Part shown: in pieces, positions 8,802 through 18,297 of the stretch | How the letters are laid out: each line of letters starts with the position of its first letter | How positions within the stretch are numbered: the first letter of the stretch is position 1 | Origin: an uncultured Opitutaceae bacterium | GTDB lineage: Bacteria > Verrucomicrobiota > Verrucomicrobiia > Opitutales > Opitutaceae | Reading direction: 5' to 3' | Assembly: GCA_937902925.1 (NCBI GenBank) | Contig: CALFNN010000102.1 | Coordinates: 62,001 to 126,000, forward strand | Length of the DNA: 64,000 nucleotides | Position numbers and translations under genes: made by a program | The notes under the pieces: model-generated | Databases searched by the model: none | Seen by the model: the letters and a program-made list of their open reading frames with translations, nothing else | Told to the model about the DNA's origin: nothing

Positions 8802-8815
8802 ATGGCATCGAAACC

Positions 8816-10294
8816 ATGATCGAGGACCGCGAACTGCTCCGGCGCTATGTCGAAGACCGCTCCGAGGCGGCGTTTGCCGAGATTGTCCGTCGGCGGATCG
8901 ACCTAGTTTACTCGGTCGCGCGGCGGCAGGTCGGGGGCGACACGCACCTGGCGGAGGATGTCACGCAAAAGGTGTTTGCCGATCTGGCGCGCAAGGCGAC
9001 GGAACTGGCCGGGCGGGCGGTGCTGAGCGGCTGGCTTTACCGGAGTGCGCAGTTTGCCGCGACGGACGTAGTGCGGAGCGAGCGGCGCCGGCGGACGCGC
9101 GAACAGGAGACCCAAATCATGAATGAAACTTCCCCGGGCGCGGATGTCGCGGTGGACTGGGAACGGTTGCGCCCGCTGCTGGATCAGGCGCTGGGGGAGT
9201 TGGGCAACGCGGAACGCGATGCGGTCGCGTTGCGCTTTTTCGAGGGGCGGGCGTTTGCGGAAATCGGTCGCGCACTGGACCTCACCGAGGAGGCGGCGCG
9301 GAAGCGCGTGGAGCGGGCGCTCGACAAGCTGCACGCGCTACTGGCGCGGCGCGGGGTGACTTCGACGGCGGCGGCGCTCGGGGTCGCGCTGGCGAATCAG
9401 GCGGGAATCGCCGCGCCGGCGGGACTGGCGGCGAGCGTCACGGGGGCGGCAATGGCGGGGACGGCGGCGGGGACGGCCGGGTGGCTGGCGACTTTTATGA
9501 CCATCGGCAAACTACAGGTGGGGATCGCGAGCGCGGTCGCGGCGGCATTCGCGACGGCCTACGTGTTGCAGGGAAAAACCAATGCGGCGTTACGCGGGGA
9601 AATTGCGGCGTTCCAGGGACAGCAGTCGTCGATGGCCGCGCTGCACGCGGATAATCAGCACCTGGCGGATGTCGCCGCGGAGGTCGAGATGCTCCGCCAC
9701 GATGACGTCGAGCTGAAACAGCTCGCGGAGCGCGCGGTTGAAATCAAGAAGGCAAACGCCGAGAAAGCACGTCTGACTCAAGCCCGCACGCAAGACCTGC
9801 GCAATGCATTCGCAGATCAGATCCGCGCCGACGACCAGCGCGCACAGCAAGAGATTGATCGGATGAACCGGGAGGGCAGTAAACTCGTCGAAGAATACAA
9901 GGTGCTCTTCGACCGATCGAAAGATGTTTCGCTCTCTGCGGAGGCTAGGGCGCAGGCGGAAGCGGAGGGGAAGGCAAAGTTAGAAGAGGTCAAGCGGACG
10001 CGCGACGAGATCAGGGCGTTTTCCGAAAACACTCGCGAAGCACTCACGCAGCGCGTCGACGCGTTCCGCCGCGTCTACGGCGACGATCCGAATTCTCCGC
10101 TGGCCTCGCTTCAGATAGGAAGCGGCGGATTCGAAGTGCGCCGCGTCCCGGCCGATGGCACCTCGCCCGCTTCACCACCGGTAATTCGTGCCGGAGCCCA
10201 GCAATTTGAAGGCCAGCGGGTGCCGGTTACCAGCGAAAATCCGAATGGCAACCAACCACCAGTAGGAGAGCTGAAACTCGGCCCGAAGCCCTGA
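8816..10294 (+). CDS. ECF-type sigma factor fused to membrane segment and long coiled coil (sigma fusion 1)
   Basis: A 492-residue protein. Residues 1-175 are an ECF-like sigma factor: region 2 (AFAEIVRRRIDLVYSVARR, then DVTQKVFADLARKA) binds core polymerase and the -10 element, and region 4 (LRFFEGRAFAEIGRALDLTEEAARKRVERAL) has the helix-turn-helix for -35. Residues 178-215 are the hydrophobic, small-residue linker shared by all four paralogs. A likely membrane helix is at about 233-251. The rest is charged coiled coil (257-410), then a Pro-rich tail. ATG 8816 aligns with the other copies. The coiled coil probably acts in dimerisation or partner binding outside the sigma core. Confidence 0.85.
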   Translation: MIEDRELLRRYVEDRSEAAFAEIVRRRIDLVYSVARRQVGGDTHLAEDVTQKVFADLARKATELAGRAVLSGWLYRSAQFAATDVVRSERRRRTREQETQIMNETSPGADVAVDWERLRPLLDQALGELGNAERDAVALRFFEGRAFAEIGRALDLTEEAARKRVERALDKLHALLARRGVTSTAAALGVALANQAGIAAPAGLAASVTGAAMAGTAAGTAGWLATFMTIGKLQVGIASAVAAAFATAYVLQGKTNAALRGEIAAFQGQQSSMAALHADNQHLADVAAEVEMLRHDDVELKQLAERAVEIKKANAEKARLTQARTQDLRNAFADQIRADDQRAQQEIDRMNREGSKLVEEYKVLFDRSKDVSLSAEARAQAEAEGKAKLEEVKRTRDEIRAFSENTREALTQRVDAFRRVYGDDPNSPLASLQIGSGGFEVRRVPADGTSPASPPVIRAGAQQFEGQRVPVTSENPNGNQPPVGELKLGPKP

Positions 10295-10327: not shown

Positions 10328-10618
10328 ATGAAACATCGATCTACCGTTGGATTCTTCGTCGTGCTCACGGTGCTGATCGTCGCGGGTAGCGCCGGTCTTG
10401 CCTCGCAGTGGCAGCAGACGATGCTGCTGCGCGGCGAACTCGACGGCTTGCGCGACCAGGAGCGCGAATGGAAGGCGTTGAGGGTGGAAAACGAGCGGTT
10501 GCGCGCGCAGCAAATTCCGGCGGCGGAGCTGGCGGCGTTACGGGCGGATCACGTGGCGGTGGCGCGGTTGCGGGCGGAGTTGGAGGCGCTGAAGAAAGGC
10601 GCGACGCAGGGGCGTTGA
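10328..10618 (+). CDS. small membrane-anchored coiled-coil protein, companion of sigma fusion 1
   Basis: A 96-residue protein starting 34 bp after the sigma gene. One N-terminal hydrophobic segment (FFVVLTVLIVAGSAGLA, about 9-25) is followed by a charged heptad-rich helix to the end. The layout (one helix, then coiled coil) copies that of the C-terminal half of sigma fusion 1, so the two may pair through their coiled coils. That is inference; no known family was recognised. Confidence 0.65.
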   Translation: MKHRSTVGFFVVLTVLIVAGSAGLASQWQQTMLLRGELDGLRDQEREWKALRVENERLRAQQIPAAELAALRADHVAVARLRAELEALKKGATQGR

Positions 10619-10757: not shown

Positions 10758-12500
10758 ATGACCGATGACACCGAATTACTGCGCCGCTACGCCGAGGAAA
10801 AATCGGACGACGCCTTCGCCGAACTCGTGCGGCGGCACATCGACTTCGTCTACGCCGCGGCACTGCGGCAGGCGCACGGCAACGTGCCGCTCGCGCAGGA
10901 TGTCGCGCAGGTCGTCTTCACCGACCTGGCGCGCAAGGCGGGGCGGCTGGCGCGGCACGAGGTGGTCGTCGGCTGGCTCCACACGGCGACACGGTTCGCA
11001 GCCGGGAACGCGATTCGCTCGGAAGTCCGCCGGACGGCGCGCGAGCAGGAGGCTTTCGCGATGAACGAGGCGCTGCAGGAAGCGGACGCTCCGGCCGATT
11101 GGGAGCGGTTGCAACCGGTGCTCGACGACGTGCTGGGCGAATTGAAGGAACGCGAGCGCGCGGCGATCTTGCTGCGGTTCTTCGAGAAGAAGCCGCTCGC
11201 CGAGGTCGGGGCGAAACTGTCGCTGACCGAGACGGCGGCGCGTTCCTGCGTGGACCGGGCGCTGGAAAAAATGCGCGGCCTGCTCGCGCGGCGGGGCGTG
11301 ACCTCGACGGGCGCGGCCCTCGCGGTCGCGCTCGGGAATCAGGTGAGTGTGGCGGCACCGGCGGGACTCGCGGCGAGCGTGACGGGCGCGGCACTGGCGG
11401 GCGCGGCAGGGGCCGCGGCCGGCGGCGGCGCGATCGTCGCGGTGAAGATTTTGAATTTTATGAGCACAACCAAAATAGTCAGTGGAGTCGCGGGCGTCGT
11501 GGCGTTGCTGGCCGTCGGCTCCGCCGTCTATCAGGCGAACCTCGCCCGCGTGGCGGAAGCGAGCGCGACGGCGGTCGGCACGGAACGCGACGAATTGCGC
11601 GCCAAGCTGGGCGCGGTGGAAAAACACGCGCAGCAAGCGGATGACAGCCTGGCCGCCGCGCAAAAGGAACTGGGTGAAGCACGCGCCACGGCGGCGAAAC
11701 TGGCCGAGGCTCCGCCGACGCGTCCGCCGGCCTCGCAGTCCGGCCCGGCGATGGACTACGTGCTCGAGCATCCCGAGGTGCAGCCTACTTTTGTCGCGCA
11801 GCAGGCGCTGCGCTTGAAGGCGCACTATGACCGGTTTCTCAAGGCCTCGGGACTGTCGCCGGAGCAGCAGGAGGAGTTCCTCAGCGAGATGAAGGGATTG
11901 TCGGCCGACGAGCTGGATCTCATGGCGGCGCTGCACACCCAGGGCTATGGCGTGGGAAACCTGCCGAAGGATCCGCAGGCGCAGGCCCAGTTTCAGGAGC
12001 TGTTGAACGAACATCGGCAAAACACACAAGACATGCAGGCGAAGCTGCACGCGCTGATGGGTGACGACCTCTTCAAGCGATTCGCACAATTCGCAGGCAC
12101 GATTCCCGAGCGCAACGTCGCGGACCAGGTCGCGGCGCAGCTCTACTACACCGATGCGCCGCTCACCGCGCCGCAGGCGGACCAACTGGCGCAGATCCTC
12201 GCGCAAAACCGTTACTCCGGCCAGCCGAAGCCCACGCCGACCACCACGATGAACGGAACCTTCATCACGCCGCAGGCGATGACCGGCCGCCGGGGCCAGG
12301 CAATGCAGCAGCAAGGCATGAACCTGATGGACTGGCTCGCCCCCGTGACCGACGCGGCGCTGGCGCGGGCCCAGGCGGTGCTGACGCCGGCGCAGTTCGC
12401 GGCCTTGCAGCAGATCCAGGCGCAGCAGGTGACCCAGATCCAGCTCGCCCCGCCGCCGCCGGGAGCGCCCGTCGCGCCGGCCGCCGGCGGCGCCAAGTGA
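10758..12500 (+). CDS. ECF-type sigma factor fused to membrane segment and LTxxQ-repeat domain (sigma fusion 2)
   Basis: A 580-residue protein. Residues 1-175 are the ECF sigma part (region 2 around 20-62, region 4 around 118-176). The shared linker with RRGVTST and VAAPAGLAASVTGAALAG spans 178-215. FMSTTK precedes a predicted membrane helix at about 239-258. A coiled coil (261-320) leads to a helical C-terminal domain with LSPEQ (366-370), LTAPQ (469-473) and LTPAQ (542-546). These resemble the LTxxQ motifs of Spy/CpxP-type periplasmic chaperone-sensors. The first ~210 residues align gap-free with the other three fusions. The C-terminal domain may sense envelope stress or protein partners; that role is inferred. 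Confidence 0.85.
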   Translation: MTDDTELLRRYAEEKSDDAFAELVRRHIDFVYAAALRQAHGNVPLAQDVAQVVFTDLARKAGRLARHEVVVGWLHTATRFAAGNAIRSEVRRTAREQEAFAMNEALQEADAPADWERLQPVLDDVLGELKERERAAILLRFFEKKPLAEVGAKLSLTETAARSCVDRALEKMRGLLARRGVTSTGAALAVALGNQVSVAAPAGLAASVTGAALAGAAGAAAGGGAIVAVKILNFMSTTKIVSGVAGVVALLAVGSAVYQANLARVAEASATAVGTERDELRAKLGAVEKHAQQADDSLAAAQKELGEARATAAKLAEAPPTRPPASQSGPAMDYVLEHPEVQPTFVAQQALRLKAHYDRFLKASGLSPEQQEEFLSEMKGLSADELDLMAALHTQGYGVGNLPKDPQAQAQFQELLNEHRQNTQDMQAKLHALMGDDLFKRFAQFAGTIPERNVADQVAAQLYYTDAPLTAPQADQLAQILAQNRYSGQPKPTPTTTMNGTFITPQAMTGRRGQAMQQQGMNLMDWLAPVTDAALARAQAVLTPAQFAALQQIQAQQVTQIQLAPPPPGAPVAPAAGGAK

Positions 12501-12550
12501 GGCGCGAGGATTTCGTCAGAAAACCAAAAGATCCAAAACCAGAATTCACC

Positions 12551-12790
12551 ATGATTAAATTCGAACACACCACCGTTGTCCTGCAGTTGGAGAAAAAGAA
12601 TTTTGCGGTTTCGCGCGCGGACGTTTTCCAAGGGCTTTCCCGGGAAAGCGCGGAGACCCTCGCAAAGCTCGGCGAACAGGGCTGGGAACTCGTCGCGGCT
12701 TTTCCAGTGTCGTCGGGCAGCGCCGGGTTGACCTCGTTTGCGGCGACCGACGCGGCGCTCGGGCTGCTCAAGCGCCCGAAGGCGGCGTAG
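12551..12790 (+). CDS. small DUF4177-like protein
   Basis: A 79-residue protein starting 50 bp after sigma fusion 2. It contains LAKLGEQGWELVAAFPV, the hallmark of DUF4177-type small proteins (Gly-Trp-Glu-Leu-Val after a short helix). The ATG at 12551 was preferred to an upstream in-frame start that overlaps the sigma stop. No signal peptide or membrane segment. A strong terminator follows at 12814-12841, so sigma fusion 2 and this gene look like one transcription unit. Confidence 0.7.
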   Translation: MIKFEHTTVVLQLEKKNFAVSRADVFQGLSRESAETLAKLGEQGWELVAAFPVSSGSAGLTSFAATDAALGLLKRPKAA

Positions 12791-12813
12791 GAGGCGGAAC
12801 TTCCGGTTGGGGA

Positions 12814-12841
12814 CGCCGCCTTCGCGGAAGGCGGCGTTTTT
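12814..12841 (+). terminator. Rho-independent terminator after sigma fusion 2 unit
   Basis: A 10-bp perfect stem (CGCCGCCTTC / GAAGGCGGCG) with a 3-base loop GCG is followed directly by five T residues at 12837-12841. It lies between the DUF4177-like gene and the promoter motif of sigma fusion 3, showing that the sigma genes are separate transcription units. Confidence 0.85.
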
Positions 12842-12842
12842 G

Positions 12843-12873
12843 TTGTCCGGTTTTCGCGGTGGCGGGTGATAAT
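12843..12873 (+). promoter_or_regulatory. promoter-like motif of sigma fusion 3
   Basis: TTGTCCGGTTTTCG begins at 12843 and GATAAT lies at 12868-12873, 19 bp after TTGTCC, preceded by TG as in an extended -10. The motif starts 43 bp before the ATG at 12886. It follows immediately on a terminator. Confidence 0.65.
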
Positions 12874-12885
12874 GGGTGCATGGCC

Positions 12886-14322
12886 ATGATGGACGACAGC
12901 GCGCTGCTCCACCGCTACGCCGAGGAACGCTCGGAGGAGGCGTTCGCGGAGCTCGTGCGCCGTCACATCGGCCTCGTTTACCATGCCGCGCTGCGGCAGA
13001 CGGGCGGCGACACCACGCTCGCGGAGGACGCGACGCAGGCGGTGTTCACCGATCTGGCGCGGAAGGCGCGGGTGCTGGCGCAGCGGCCGGTCATCACCGG
13101 CTGGCTTTACACGAGCACGCGTTTCGCGGCGGCGAAGGCGCGGCGCACAGAACGGCGGCGGCAAGTCCGCGAACAGGAGGCCCAGCTCATGCATGAACTC
13201 AACCAGGATACCGGCTCCGCGACGGAGTGGGAGCGGTTGCGGCCGGTGATCGACGATGCGCTCCACGCCCTCGACGAGCGCGACCGCGAGGCGGTGCTGC
13301 TGCGCTTCTTCGAGGGCCGGCCGTTTGCCGAGATCGGCGCGAAACTTTCGCTGACCGAGGACACGGCGCGGGTGCGCGTGGGCCGGGCGCTGGACAAGAT
13401 GCACGCGCGGCTGGCCCGCCGCGGGGTGACGTCGACCGCGGCGGCGCTGGCCGCGGCGCTTGCAAACCAGACGGTCGCAGCGGCGCCCGCAGGGCTGGCT
13501 GCGACGGTGACGGGGGCGGCGCTGGCGGGAGCGATGAGCGGCGCGGAGGTCGCGTGGCTCGCATTTTTCACGATGAACAAAATCAAAGCCGGGGTGGTGG
13601 GGGCGATCCTCCTCGCGGCGCTCGTGCCCGCGTTGGTCGAGGTGCGGGCGCATCAGGCGCTGAGCGACGAATTGCAAAATCTCCAGGCCGGGGAGAACGC
13701 GGCGCAGCGCGCGAACACACAGTTGATGACGGCGCTCGCCAAGGTGGGTGCGAAGAACCCGGTGGCGAACGAATCGGGTGAGCTGGCAAAGATGCGCGCC
13801 CGCGCGGCGGTGCTCCGGGCGCGACCCGAAGGCGTCGTCGAGGCGGAGATGCGGCCGCCGGCCAATGCGGGCTGGGCGACCCCGGAGGCGGCGTTCGAGA
13901 CGATGAACTGGGCGGTCACGGCCGGCGATTGGGCGACGTTCGCCAAGTCTTGGAAGTTCGAGAGGGAGAACAAGTCGGCGGCGGATGCATTTTTCGCCGG
14001 GCTCAGTCCCGAGGCACGGGAGAAATATGGCACGCCGGAGCGCGTGCTCGCGCATGCGCTGCTGGAGTCATCCTTCCCGCACGGGAGCGACTGGATGGTG
14101 GCGATGCAGGTTTACGACGTTCAAGTGGTCGACGGGCCCGCTCCGATGAAAGTGCTGATCTGGCAGCGGCTGGGCGACGGGCATGAGTTTGCCAACGCCG
14201 CCACGCTGGAACGGTCCGCCGGCGGCTGGGTCGCGGGGCAACCGGGCGTGGCGAAAATCCTGAAGATTCTGATTCCCCAGCTGGACTCGGTGTCGGGCGA
14301 ACTGCGGCCGAAACAGAAATAA
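12886..14322 (+). CDS. ECF-type sigma factor fused to membrane segment and a domain shared with the next gene (sigma fusion 3)
   Basis: A 478-residue protein counted from the ATG at 12886, which aligns MMDDSALL with MTDDTELL of the paralogs; ATGs at 12880 and 12889 are alternatives. The sigma part covers 1-175, the conserved RRGVTST...VAAPAGLAATVTGAALAG linker 178-215, and a predicted membrane helix about 233-251. A short coiled coil follows. Residues about 330-478 form a domain containing LSPEAREKYGTPERV. The downstream membrane protein carries the same motif (LPPEAREKYPTPEKM) at the same place in its fold. The domain may be NTF2-like, though I cannot confirm the fold. Probable role: a membrane-held sigma factor with a sensory or partner-binding tail. 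Confidence 0.85.
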   Translation: MMDDSALLHRYAEERSEEAFAELVRRHIGLVYHAALRQTGGDTTLAEDATQAVFTDLARKARVLAQRPVITGWLYTSTRFAAAKARRTERRRQVREQEAQLMHELNQDTGSATEWERLRPVIDDALHALDERDREAVLLRFFEGRPFAEIGAKLSLTEDTARVRVGRALDKMHARLARRGVTSTAAALAAALANQTVAAAPAGLAATVTGAALAGAMSGAEVAWLAFFTMNKIKAGVVGAILLAALVPALVEVRAHQALSDELQNLQAGENAAQRANTQLMTALAKVGAKNPVANESGELAKMRARAAVLRARPEGVVEAEMRPPANAGWATPEAAFETMNWAVTAGDWATFAKSWKFERENKSAADAFFAGLSPEAREKYGTPERVLAHALLESSFPHGSDWMVAMQVYDVQVVDGPAPMKVLIWQRLGDGHEFANAATLERSAGGWVAGQPGVAKILKILIPQLDSVSGELRPKQK

Positions 14323-14343
14323 GTCGGACAACAACGCCGAACG

Positions 14344-15150
14344 ATGATCGCGAAACTGTTCAAAATCGGACTGCCGCTGCTAGTCCTGGGGCTGGGTATC
14401 GGAGCGTATGTCCATTTCCGCAGGGCCAACGCCCGGCTGAGCCAGCAGGTCGTGGCCGCACGCGAGCGGAACGAACGGACCGCCCGCCTGCGCGAGAACA
14501 ACGAAAAATTGCGCACCATCGTGGCGCGGGCGAAAGCGGACGAGGGTGATGGGTTGCGCGCGATCCACGCGGAGGCAGCGCAAGCGCGGAACGAGGTTGC
14601 GAATTTGGAGCGCCAGGCCGGGGAACGCTACACCGCGAAGGTGGCGAAGGACGAGGCGGCAGCCGAGGCATTGCAGTCCAACCGCGCCCCGACCAAGGGC
14701 CCGATGCTCGTCGACAACTGCCGCGACGTCGGCCGCGGCTCGCCCGCCGCCGCACTCCAGACGCTGGTGTGGGCGAGCGTGAAAGGCGACGACGAGGCGG
14801 TGGCGGGCATGATTGTGCTCGACGGCAAGGCCCGGGGGCTGGTGGCCGCGCTGCTCGCGACGTTGCCGCCGGAGGCGCGGGAAAAATATCCGACCCCGGA
14901 GAAAATGGCGGCGCTCGTGCTGGCGGACATGCTGCTGAACGTCTCGACGATCCAGGTGGTGGCACAGTCGCCTCTCGACTCGCAGCGCGTCGTAGTGACG
15001 GTCGGAAACCTCTCGGGGAAGACCATCGACCTCGTGATGGCCGCCGGGCCCGACGGCTGGCAGGTGGTGACCGCCGACCGCAAGATATTCGAGCAGTTCA
15101 AAGCCAAAATCGTGGGCGCGGGTCCGCCGCCGGCGCCCGCAAAGAAGTAG
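14344..15150 (+). CDS. membrane-anchored coiled-coil protein sharing the tail domain of sigma fusion 3
   Basis: A 268-residue protein starting 21 bp after sigma fusion 3. An N-terminal membrane helix (about 8-24) is followed by a long charged coiled coil (28-115) and a globular domain (about 132-250). That domain contains LATLPPEAREKYPTPEKM, clearly paralogous to the C-terminal domain of the preceding sigma fusion. It is thus the sigma fusion without its sigma part. It could form mixed oligomers with sigma fusion 3 or compete for the same ligand; this is inference. The C-terminus is Pro/Ala/Lys-rich. Confidence 0.75.
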   Translation: MIAKLFKIGLPLLVLGLGIGAYVHFRRANARLSQQVVAARERNERTARLRENNEKLRTIVARAKADEGDGLRAIHAEAAQARNEVANLERQAGERYTAKVAKDEAAAEALQSNRAPTKGPMLVDNCRDVGRGSPAAALQTLVWASVKGDDEAVAGMIVLDGKARGLVAALLATLPPEAREKYPTPEKMAALVLADMLLNVSTIQVVAQSPLDSQRVVVTVGNLSGKTIDLVMAAGPDGWQVVTADRKIFEQFKAKIVGAGPPPAPAKK

Positions 15151-15174
15151 GTCCGCCAGGCGGCGAAGATTATT

Positions 15175-15204
15175 TTGTGCGGTTTCGGCCGCGCCGGTGT
15201 TTAG
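15175..15204 (+). promoter_or_regulatory. promoter-like motif of sigma fusion 4
   Basis: TTGTGCGGTTTCGG begins at 15175 and GTTTAG lies at 15199-15204, 18 bp after TTGTGC, within CCGGTGTTTAG. It starts 43 bp before the ATG at 15218. Confidence 0.55.
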
Positions 15205-15217
15205 CTGCTGAACACCG

Positions 15218-16504
15218 ATGACGGATGATGCCGAACTGCTGCGCCGCTACGCTGAGGAACGCTCGGAGACCGCTTTCGCGGAATTCGTGGAGCGCCGGGT
15301 CGGGCTGGTTTACGCCGCGGCATTGCGGCGGGTCAGCGGTGACGAGCACGCGGCGAAGGAGGTGGCGCAGCAGGTTTTCACGACCGTGGCCCGACGGGCC
15401 GCGGCACTCGCGCGGCACGACGCGCTCACGGGCTGGCTCTACACCGCCACGCGTAATGCCGCGGTCAATCTGCGCCGCGACGAGCAACGCCGGCGCCTGC
15501 GCGAACGTGAGGCCAGCGCGATGAACGAGCTGCTGGCGAGCCCCGCGCCGGAAGCGGACTGGGACCGGCTCCGCACCGTGATCGACGAAGCCATGGACGA
15601 GTTGGCCGGTGCGGATCGCGAGGCGGTGCTGTTGCGTTTTTTCGAGGGCCGGCCATTTGCCGAAGTCGGCGCGAAACTCCAGCTCACGGAAAATACGGCG
15701 CGGATGCGCGTCGATCGGGCACTCGACAAGCTGAGGATTCGACTCGCGCAGCGCGGCATCACATCGACGTCGGCGGCGCTCGGGGTCGTGTTGGCGAGCG
15801 AGGTGGGCGTGGCGGCGCCGGCGGGGCTGGCGGCGACGGTGACGGGCGCGGCGCTGGCGGCGGCGGCGAGCGTCGGTGGCGCCGCAGGCATCTTTGCATT
15901 TATGAGCACAACCAAAGTCGTGACGGGTGTGGTGGTCGTGATTGCAATCGGAGCGATGGGAATAGGATTCTTTCAATTCAGGAGAGCTCAGACCGTGGAC
16001 GCTACGGTTGCGTCGCGTCCACAAGCGCACGGGCAACCGGGCGCGCAGTTCGCGGCTGCGGAGGCACCGACGCCAAGTGCTCAAGCCGCAGCTCGCGAAG
16101 CGGGGAACGATGGCGCGACACCGGATGCGGCCGACGCTACTCCGCTGGGAAGGCAGCGGGAGCCGTTGTCGGGCCGCGCGGCCGCCGTCGAGACTCAAGA
16201 AACAGCGCCGGCGAGGTTCGGCCGGGAACCGATGCGAATGGCGAGTGTGTTGGGTGCAGTGCAAAAGCCCGGAGTCGTCTATTTTCCGGCGCAACAGGAT
16301 CTGACGCTGGTTCAGGCGATTGTCATTGCGGGTGGATTCGGCCGAATCGCGGATAAACACCGGGTTTCAATTCGGCGGCTCAATGCTGAAAACAAGCGTG
16401 AAACCGTCGTCATCGACATGGACGCGATCTTAAAGGGCAAGGCAGAGGACACGTGGGCGTTGCAGCCCGGCGATGTCGTGGTGGTTCCCGAAATATTGTT
16501 TTAA
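15218..16504 (+). CDS. ECF-type sigma factor fused to membrane segment and SLBB domain (sigma fusion 4)
   Basis: A 428-residue protein. The sigma part (1-175), linker (QRGITST...VAAPAGLAATVTGAALA, 178-214), FMSTTK box (228-233) and membrane helix (about 235-252) match the other fusions. A long Ala/Pro/Gln-rich spacer (257-338) leads to residues 341-428: VLGAVQKPGVVYFP, TLVQAIVIAGGF, then ALQPGDVVVVPEILF. This is a textbook SLBB (soluble-ligand-binding beta-grasp) domain as in Wza-type polysaccharide export proteins and ComEA. I infer that it couples transcription to a polysaccharide or another envelope ligand. It is the only member of the array without a companion gene downstream. Confidence 0.87.
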   Translation: MTDDAELLRRYAEERSETAFAEFVERRVGLVYAAALRRVSGDEHAAKEVAQQVFTTVARRAAALARHDALTGWLYTATRNAAVNLRRDEQRRRLREREASAMNELLASPAPEADWDRLRTVIDEAMDELAGADREAVLLRFFEGRPFAEVGAKLQLTENTARMRVDRALDKLRIRLAQRGITSTSAALGVVLASEVGVAAPAGLAATVTGAALAAAASVGGAAGIFAFMSTTKVVTGVVVVIAIGAMGIGFFQFRRAQTVDATVASRPQAHGQPGAQFAAAEAPTPSAQAAAREAGNDGATPDAADATPLGRQREPLSGRAAAVETQETAPARFGREPMRMASVLGAVQKPGVVYFPAQQDLTLVQAIVIAGGFGRIADKHRVSIRRLNAENKRETVVIDMDAILKGKAEDTWALQPGDVVVVPEILF

Positions 16505-16521
16505 CGAGGGCTTAAAGCGCG

Positions 16522-18297
16522 CTACCCCACCGCGAAGATCTCCACCGGTTCGGCGCGGCCTTTGACTCGGACGGGGCCGAGGGGGCGGAAAGTAGGAATC
16601 AGGAGAGAGGAGTCAGGACTCAGGAGACCCGAAGGCGGAGACGAGGTGCGGCGGCAGGCTGCAACCGTGGCGGCGCTGGTGACGATGTTGGTGCGATAGG
16701 CCACGGTGCGCGTGAGCGACTCGAGGCGGGAGGCGACGTTCACGCCGTCGCCGATCACGGAATAGTTGAGCCGGCGGTGGGAGCCGATGTTGCCGGCGAC
16801 GACGCGGGCGGTGTTCACGCCGACGCCGATGCCCAATGGCGGGCGGCCTTCGGCGGCGAGCTCGGCGTTGAGGCCAACGAGGGCGCGCTCCATCGCGAGC
16901 GCGGCGGCGAGGGCGCGGTCGGCGGCGTCGGACTGCGCGACGGGGGCGCCGAACAGGGCCATGATCGCATCGCCGATGAATTTGTCGATGACCCCGCCGT
17001 GCGCCTCGATCGCGGCGCTCATCCGGTCGAGGTAACGGTTGAGCAGCGTGAGGAGTTCACGCGGAGGAAGCTTCTCGCTGAGAGTGGTGAAGCCGCGAAG
17101 ATCGGAGAAAAGGATGGTCACTTCGCGTTCCTCGCCGCCAAGCGCGGCGCCACCGTCGCGCATGAGCTGCGCGGCGACCTCGGGTGAGACGTTCTTGTCG
17201 AGGAGGTCGCGGACGCGGTCGCGCTCGGCGAGCCCCTCGGACATGGCGTTGAAGGCGGTGGCGAGCTGGCCGAGCTCGTCGACGCGGTCGAGGTGGAGCC
17301 GGGTGGCGTAGTCGCCGGCGGCGACGACTCTCGTGTGGGCGGCGAGTTGCTGGACGGGCTGACTGATGCCGCGGGCGATCCAGAGGGCGGCGAGCGTCGC
17401 GACGGCGAGCGCGGCCAGCGAGATGAGCATGATGTAGTTTTCGACCTCGCGGGCAGCGGCGAGCTCGACGCTGAGCGGGCGCTGCAACACGACGGTGACG
17501 GGCGCCTCGGCGAGCATGTCCTGCGGCTTGAAGAGCGTGACGTAGCGGCCGCCGGGCAGGTCGAGTGTCTTGATGCGTTCGGGTGCGCGCAGATTGGCGA
17601 CAACCGATTGGGCAACGAGGCCGGCGGCGCTGGCGTCGAGCGTGGTGGCAAGGACACGGGGCCGGGTGACGTCGTCGATCGAGACGAACGTCACCTCAAG
17701 GCGGCTGATGTCCTTGATCTTTTCGGCGAAGGCGCGGTCGATCGGAAAGGCGAGTCCGAACCAGGCGGCGACATGCGGAATGGGTGCATAGAGCGGGACG
17801 ACGACGAGGACGTGCAGGCGGCCGTTGAGGTAGGAGAAGCCGCTGGTTTCGGGCGGGTCATCCCCGGCGTGTTCGATCAGGTATTGAAACGGGCCGACGT
17901 TTTCGTTGGCCATGGTTTCGTCGCTGTTGGCGAGGAGATCGCCCTTGGGGTCGAGGAGAGCAATGACGGGCGAGTTGATGCGCTGGGTGTAGCTGCGCAG
18001 CAGCGAGCCGAGGGTCTGCCGGTCGATCTCGGGCTTCAGCAGCAACTGGCGAACCGTGTAGTCGCCGCTCATGAGGCTGGCGTTGCCCGCGAGGTTTTCG
18101 ATGCGCTGGCGGGCGGCCTCCTGATAGACGCGCGCGCCGAGATCGAGGTTGGTGGCCGCGTGTTCGCGGGCCGTCTGGTCGTTGTAGTGGGAAACGAGTT
18201 TCTGCGTGGTGGCGAGCGCGGCGAAGATCAGCCCGAGGAGAATCACGAGCAGCCGGATGCTGAGGCGACGGAAACGGAAGAGGCGGAAGACGCTCAC
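16522..18297 (-). CDS. membrane class III adenylate/guanylate cyclase with HAMP domain
   Basis: A 591-residue protein from GTG at 18297, just downstream of the cupredoxin gene. Membrane helices at about 13-31 and 288-308 enclose a Cache-like extracytoplasmic sensor region; then comes HAMP (310-362) and a class III cyclase catalytic domain (390-550). Active-site residues are all visible: metal Asp399 (FSDLRGFT) and Asp443 (KFIGD), base-contact Lys439 and Asp517, and transition-state Asn520 and Arg524 (VNVASR). It should therefore be active, making cAMP more likely than cGMP. A 7-bp repeat at 16597-16624 adds a Ser/Pro-rich insertion near residues 553-568, close to the C-terminus. Last gene of a probable four-gene operon. 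Confidence 0.88.
   Translation of the reverse strand: MSVFRLFRFRRLSIRLLVILLGLIFAALATTQKLVSHYNDQTAREHAATNLDLGARVYQEAARQRIENLAGNASLMSGDYTVRQLLLKPEIDRQTLGSLLRSYTQRINSPVIALLDPKGDLLANSDETMANENVGPFQYLIEHAGDDPPETSGFSYLNGRLHVLVVVPLYAPIPHVAAWFGLAFPIDRAFAEKIKDISRLEVTFVSIDDVTRPRVLATTLDASAAGLVAQSVVANLRAPERIKTLDLPGGRYVTLFKPQDMLAEAPVTVVLQRPLSVELAAAREVENYIMLISLAALAVATLAALWIARGISQPVQQLAAHTRVVAAGDYATRLHLDRVDELGQLATAFNAMSEGLAERDRVRDLLDKNVSPEVAAQLMRDGGAALGGEEREVTILFSDLRGFTTLSEKLPPRELLTLLNRYLDRMSAAIEAHGGVIDKFIGDAIMALFGAPVAQSDAADRALAAALAMERALVGLNAELAAEGRPPLGIGVGVNTARVVAGNIGSHRRLNYSVIGDGVNVASRLESLTRTVAYRTNIVTSAATVAACRRTSSPPSGLLSPDSSLLIPTFRPLGPVRVKGRAEPVEIFAVG
16597..16624. repeat. heptanucleotide repeat inside the cyclase gene
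   Basis: Four consecutive 7-mers (AATCAGG, AGAGAGG, AGTCAGG, ACTCAGG) with strict 7-bp period lie within the 3' part of the cyclase coding region. They encode part of a Ser/Pro/Leu-rich insertion. A second islet with the same period occurs at 24344-24371. Confidence 0.65.

Follow-up and report, generated by a model that had tools for sequence, protein, structure and literature searches.

Related C-terminal domains in an ECF sigma fusion and the membrane protein encoded next to it in an uncultured Opitutaceae bacterium

As a rule, a separate anti-sigma protein holds an ECF sigma factor in check. The window, a stretch of 64,000 nucleotides from an uncultured Opitutaceae bacterium, harbors ECF sigma factors fused to a predicted membrane helix, and sigma fusion 3 (F3) is followed by a gene for a second membrane protein whose C-terminal domain resembles its own. 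Are the two domains related, how old is the pair, and does the second protein take part in control of the sigma factor?

Layout of sigma fusion 3 and its partner gene

F3 starts with ATG at 12880 or GTG at 12859, upstream of the range covered by an earlier note on this DNA, and stops at 14322. It matched Pfam Sigma70_r2, r4 and r4_2 above the curated cut-offs (PF04542, 27.9 bits, cut-off 24; PF08281, 44.9 bits, cut-off 25.7) and also TIGR02937 (72.5 bits, cut-off 42.9, E = 3e-20); with Sigma70 regions 2 and 4, F3 qualifies as an ECF sigma factor. The partner gene begins 21 bp 3' of F3 on the same strand. The features of both genes are:

12880..14322, + strand: sigma fusion 3 (F3), 480 aa; ECF sigma regions 2 and 4, membrane helix, coiled coil, NTF2-like tail
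13588..13644, + strand: F3 membrane helix (predicted), approximately aa 237-255; mean Kyte-Doolittle value of 2.31 across 19 residues
13645..13863, + strand: helical/coiled-coil stretch of F3; helix in a low-confidence model, marginal score against the partner coiled-coil model
13864..14265, + strand: NTF2-like tail domain of F3, about aa 329-462, about 130 residues; from BLASTP, free-only profile and VIA
14344..15150, + strand: partner protein, 268 aa; short N-terminus, membrane helix, coiled coil, NTF2-like domain
14356..14415, + strand: partner membrane helix (predicted), approximately aa 5-24; hydropathy 1.92
14416..14682, + strand: partner coiled coil, aa 25-113; modelled as a single long helix spanning 2-113
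14725..15114, + strand: partner NTF2-like domain, aa 128-257; block-wise pLDDT of 86-93 for aa 121-200; from VIA and Foldseek

A scan covering one promoter type revealed neither a promoter-like nor a + strand terminator-like site in 12500-16700; hence, F3 and the partner gene are probably co-transcribed. The partner matched no Pfam family within E 0.05 and no NCBIfam family within E 1; DivIC and TetR_C_6, the sole Pfam matches (E > 0.3), were rejected. Plasmid records gave no match for the protein or the DNA.

Similarity, predicted fold and topology of the two proteins

BLASTP aligned residues 329-417 of F3 with residues 128-216 of the partner (34% over 89 aa, ungapped, E = 6e-11), and the local score of the two tails was 111 as compared to a maximum of 52 across 2000 shuffles. 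With a 15-residue motif masked on both sides, a score of 49 was retained, which was equalled by 1 of 2000 shuffles; the similarity therefore extends past the motif, though it is much weaker there. Comparison of a profile of 22 free proteins with one of 10 fused tails gave a probability of 99.95 (E = 1.4e-38, 243 columns), and a model built from the free proteins only recovered the F3 tail at E = 3e-22. Coincidence of a short motif is ruled out by BLASTP, profile-profile comparison and masked shuffles. The earlier note had claimed a shared C-terminal domain behind a membrane helix and a coiled coil, and the claim held: both motifs are present, and the similarity is not confined to the short motif, the outcome which the note itself had set against its claim.

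A strongly hydrophobic segment leads into a helical stretch in both F3 and the partner. Against the partner model, the membrane-helix/coiled-coil part of F3 scored 19.7 bits, a value matched by 3 of 300 heptad-permuted controls, and its sequence homology to the partner appears marginal. Among the 60 other fusions left after filtering, 46 beat all 20 of their own permuted controls in this part (mean 29.1 vs 5.5 bits).

The AF2 model of the partner (mean pLDDT 77.6) revealed an alpha+beta domain after a helix reaching residue 113, with pLDDT 86-93 over residues 121-200. Its best Foldseek match was the NTF2-like structure 3k7c (prob 0.99, E = 0.011), and the VIA rows listed were mostly NTF2-like or cystatin-like entries, with Z up to 7.2. 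The F3 tail was modelled with low confidence (pLDDT 61.9); its order of elements is similar to that of the partner, and VIA gave a Z of 8.4 to 3k7c. The VIA values sit near a level that the tool itself describes as common, and the models of partner and F3 tail cannot be counted as independent, because the alignment used for the F3 tail included partner sequences. A DUF4878 match in one relative (E = 9e-4) was below cut-off. According to these models, both tails likely adopt the fold of the NTF2-like superfamily.

A C-terminal membrane segment (Kyte-Doolittle value at least 1.5) located after an RRGV motif was predicted for 89 of the 115 unique fusions. Charge bias favoured an N-in/C-out orientation in 53 of these 89 and opposed it in 14; for the partners, the corresponding numbers were 46 and 10 of 67. 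The Ala-rich segment before the membrane helix of the fusions is itself fairly hydrophobic (at least 1.6 in 29/89) and, if it were inserted, the tail would be cytoplasmic. The TonB_C, ExbD and SLBB domains carried by some fusions are found on the periplasmic side in known systems. The partner has only few residues before its membrane helix and no anti-sigma match in Pfam or NCBIfam. If the N-in topology is right, so short an N-terminus means that the partner cannot be a classical cytoplasmic anti-sigma factor.

Distribution and history of the gene pair

F3 is accompanied by other sigma fusions in the window:

8813..10294, + strand: sigma fusion 1; sigma, membrane helix, coiled coil; no NTF2-like domain found
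10328..10618, + strand: protein of 96 aa with membrane helix and coiled coil, directly 3' of sigma fusion 1
10758..12500, + strand: sigma fusion 2; no free protein of the partner family found 3' of it
12551-12790: small ORF between fusions 2 and 3; DUF4177-like match, E = 1.9e-4, below cut-off
15218..16504, + strand: sigma fusion 4; sigma, membrane helix, SLBB domain (PF22461, E = 5e-8; PF10531, E = 1.5e-7)

The product of 10328..10618 matched the partner profile over positions 3-93 (E = 1.3e-18) with 76.8 bits, as compared to a maximum of 39.1 in 200 heptad-permuted controls; judged by this profile, it is a member of the partner family without the NTF2-like domain. The SLBB end of sigma fusion 4 resembles polysaccharide export proteins (TIGR03027, E = 5.7e-13, below cut-off). 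The genome as a whole (G000) contains 72 matches to the sigma70-ECF model TIGR02937, 60 of them over cut-off, with arrays of fusions on contigs C102 and C55, and 14 matches to the partner at E ≤ 10. These 14 include the partner of a second pair 31 kb upstream; this second partner (C102:44961-45746) is 40% identical to that of F3.

Furthermore, two fusions of this genome (L015:5024-6586 and L015:11676-13739, on C102) combine an ECF sigma factor and a membrane helix with a TonB_C domain (E = 1.3e-8 and 2.4e-16), and both are followed by an NTF2-type partner. A sigma factor of this kind might contact outer-membrane receptors directly. Another fusion (L021:5887-7551, on C80) has an ExbD-like tail (E = 7.7e-8) and is also followed by an NTF2-type partner.

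Profile A1 of the partner found matches in 79 of 200 genomes of the family, representing 30 of 49 genera. In a sample of the phylum, 19 of 194 genomes matched, outside the family weakly and over the helix/coiled coil only (best E = 8.4e-6). The earlier note had proposed a search for homologous pairs elsewhere, and such pairs were indeed found: among the loci returned by the search, upstream DNA was long enough for 46 free homologues, of which 37 sit directly 3' of an ECF sigma fusion, and three further free proteins had too little upstream DNA. This is the less biased count; a count of 64/79 includes regions chosen for their pair-like look, and all loci together gave 67/86 plus the 3 short ones. 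The order of fusion and partner is preserved over many genera despite sequences diverged to 30-40%, and the partners are intact. At one locus (L106:719-5066, G194:C2), the entire sigma-partner pair occurs twice in tandem.

An NTF2-like tail is present in 8 of the 37 upstream fusions and lacking in 29; pairing of two NTF2-like domains thus cannot be the general mechanism. The fusions scanned (n = 23) carried a TonB_C tail in five cases and an ExbD or an SLBB tail in one case each.

One genome, G132, encodes a single frame of 611 aa with the order sigma-TM-NTF2-NTF2, the only frame covering both domains among 252 family genomes searched. Its domain 1 nests in the fused tails of a second lineage of pairs, lineage II (support 99/85), and its domain 2 in the partners of that lineage (99/97). 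In G423, which belongs to the same genus, the pair is split into two genes separated by 10 bp, which match domains 1 and 2 of G132 at 49% and 42% identity. A fused version of two proteins hints at joint function, the Rosetta-stone idea, and G132 may be taken as a clue of this type, from one case, that both domains work together. The mixed oligomers proposed by the earlier note gain indirect support from this single chain and from the conserved gene order.

We consider it fairly probable, from sequence comparisons, that fusion and partner form a conserved two-gene membrane signalling module of Opitutaceae-like Verrucomicrobiota, a two-subunit periplasmic sensor which would hold or release the sigma domain. 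The partner might instead act as a decoy, competing with the fusion for a periplasmic ligand or protein and setting a threshold by titration, without binding the fusion. The related domains of F3 and its partner and the operon-like arrangement would suit such a role, but most of the upstream fusions have no such domain to compete with, and in G132 a single protein contains the two domains in a 1:1 ratio, an arrangement of little use to a decoy; we regard this role as rather unlikely.

The history of the domains was analyzed in a main tree of 82 tail domains, which included 40 of 64 other free rows; a second tree including the G132 domains contained 14 hand-picked other free rows, and the AU test 12. 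The trees are unrooted and contain many weak forks. The eight F3-type fused tails form one group (99/91), together with one probably broken fusion: L112_1686, labelled free, falls inside the fused clade, and its match carries a stop. The eight F3-type partners sit together inside another group of nine (100/99). F3 and G006 are sisters in both groups, fused tail with fused tail and partner with partner; these mirrored relations show the pair to be old and inherited as a unit. In the second lineage, which comprises ten other pairs, fused tails and partners are sister groups (100/99); on this tree, it is a separate event. For a third set of fused tails (L019, L083, L125), no partner was found 3' of the fusions. 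A single clade of all 23 fused tails was rejected (AU p = 0.0083; the constraint was run after earlier trees had been seen), so the NTF2-like domain has changed place between fusion and free gene repeatedly. Since partners are widely spread, the domain may have been gained on the fusion.

Distances among fused tails and among partners were correlated over 18 pairs (Mantel r = 0.88), and within the lineages at 0.54 (p = 0.009) and 0.55 (p = 0.0009). In these 18 pairs, the own partner was never the best-scoring one within its lineage, which gives no sign of local conversion; in the F3 lineage, it ranked 3 to 8 of 8 partners. Mirrored trees would also follow from plain co-inheritance of neighbours. 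Tails and partners could be relics of repeated local duplication in the sigma-fusion arrays, co-inherited and functionally uncoupled. The sigma fusions are clustered and multiplied, as the TIGR02937 matches in G000 and the tandem pair copies illustrate; however, duplication alone does not readily account for an order kept over many genera with intact partners, for two groups which predate the multiplication of pairs, or for the single chain of G132, and we judge this explanation no likelier than a decoy.

Not every partner adjoins a sigma factor. No sigma gene was found upstream of 9 of the 46 free homologues, and at three loci (L018, L071, L130) the free gene lies directly 3' of a multi-helix membrane protein of one and the same type, with a shared type of C-terminal sequence. 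At all three, the partner-type protein (at L018, L018:5369-6163) occurs without a sigma gene; at L018, an ABC ATPase gene is near, and the multi-helix protein has no Pfam match. Hence, the partner can function in the absence of a sigma fusion. Target genes of ECF sigma factors may be located beside the ECF genes, and the main job of the partner could be unrelated to sigma control, for example as a transporter accessory or envelope protein regulated by the sigma factor. This is very unlikely, since the majority of copies lie next to sigma fusions and have a helix and coiled coil of the type found in these fusions.

It is extremely unlikely that the free gene arose recently from F3 by deletion, or that F3 arose recently when a sigma gene was fused to the free gene, as their adjacency and common layout might suggest: for both, the counterpart in another genome is a closer relative than the neighbouring gene, and the mirrored groups and own-partner ranks contradict recent loss of the sigma part. 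The description of the next gene as the fusion minus its sigma part is thus apt for the domain layout of this pair but fails as history, the partner being nearest to other partners and not to the F3 tail. The suggested intermediate in building or losing fusions fits the family in a broader sense, with the domain on the fusion in three separate groups and both domains in one chain in a single genome; F3 and its neighbour, which fall into separate mirrored groups, are not themselves such an intermediate.

Known systems and a possible mechanism

In ECF41 and ECF56, a C-terminal SnoaL_2 (NTF2-like) extension contacts the sigma core, and the co-transcribed partner RsfG of the ECF56 factor SigG1 binds SigG1 and has no conserved Pfam domains, according to the portions of the literature covered (PMC3426412, PMC7730460). 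The likeness lies in an ECF sigma factor with a C-terminal NTF2-superfamily domain and, for SigG1, a partner gene. The covered text of these reports mentions no membrane segment and does not describe RsfG as a copy of the extension, whereas in the present fusions sigma4 and tail are separated by a predicted membrane helix and coiled coil, and the partner domain is related to the F3 tail. The ECF41 motifs NPDKL (tail) and GPWLPEP-type (sigma2-sigma4 linker) were each found in 0 of 115 unique fusions.

IutY (ECF243) is a membrane-fused ECF sigma factor released by Prc and RseP, and ECF48, ECF52 and ECF53 are membrane-fused with a zinc-finger type anti-sigma part, as stated in the covered portion of PMC8999054. 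They share the C-terminal membrane segment, predicted here, with the present fusions; they differ in their fused anti-sigma part, and that portion describes no second-gene copy of a periplasmic domain. The pattern HxxxCxxC after residue 150 occurred in 1 of 115 fusions here. RsgI also combines an NTF2-like domain with a membrane protein controlling a sigma factor (RsgI9 NTF2, PDB 7sjy, Z 6.5 and 7.2); it differs as an anti-sigma protein separate from its sigma factor, which is of another class, in the parts covered of PMC12203970 and PMC10575876. A lineage-wide expansion of ECF sigma factors with extra domains is likewise reported for Planctomycetes; these bear WD40 repeats, and the covered part of the description includes no such partner (PMC8567305).

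The nearest kinds in this partially covered literature are the SnoaL_2-type ECFs (ECF41, ECF56) and the membrane-fused ECFs (IutY, ECF48/52/53). The present fusions lack the two ECF41 motifs and have the NTF2-like domain beyond a predicted membrane helix, and we regard them as a variant within known kinds. Within the same partial coverage, no published description of this pair or of sigma-TonB_C fusions was found.

How might a two-subunit sensor operate? Gene A would encode an ECF sigma factor that a single helix anchors in the inner membrane, followed by a coiled coil and a case-specific periplasmic domain, which may be NTF2-like, TonB_C, ExbD-like, SLBB or none recognised. Gene B would provide a membrane-helix/coiled-coil protein, usually with an NTF2-like domain, and both proteins would be oriented N-in/C-out. 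The NTF2-like fold often dimerises. Fusion and partner may pair via helix and coiled coil and, in F3-type pairs, also via their NTF2-like domains. A periplasmic signal would then alter the complex such that the sigma domain is freed or repositioned. By analogy with IutY, the simplest route of release would be regulated intramembrane proteolysis of the fusion; the partner would act as a gate for sigma release or for access of the sigma domain to RNA polymerase.

Tentatively, these pairs may be viewed as lineage-specific two-subunit transmembrane sigma receptors; we hold this wider view to be possible, not probable. An exchangeable periplasmic sensor on the ECF sigma factor would be combined with a common NTF2-bearing co-receptor paired by helix and coiled coil, sensor domains would be traded between the chains, and the heteromer, not an anti-sigma factor, would control sigma release. 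Sensor and sigma factor would here be united in a single membrane protein, and what the adjacent gene encodes resembles the sensor and not an anti-sigma factor. The many paralogous pairs, which include split, single-chain and tail-less versions, would allow testing how sensor domains are acquired and lost by sigma fusions, and whether transcription can be switched across the membrane when related periplasmic domains pair.
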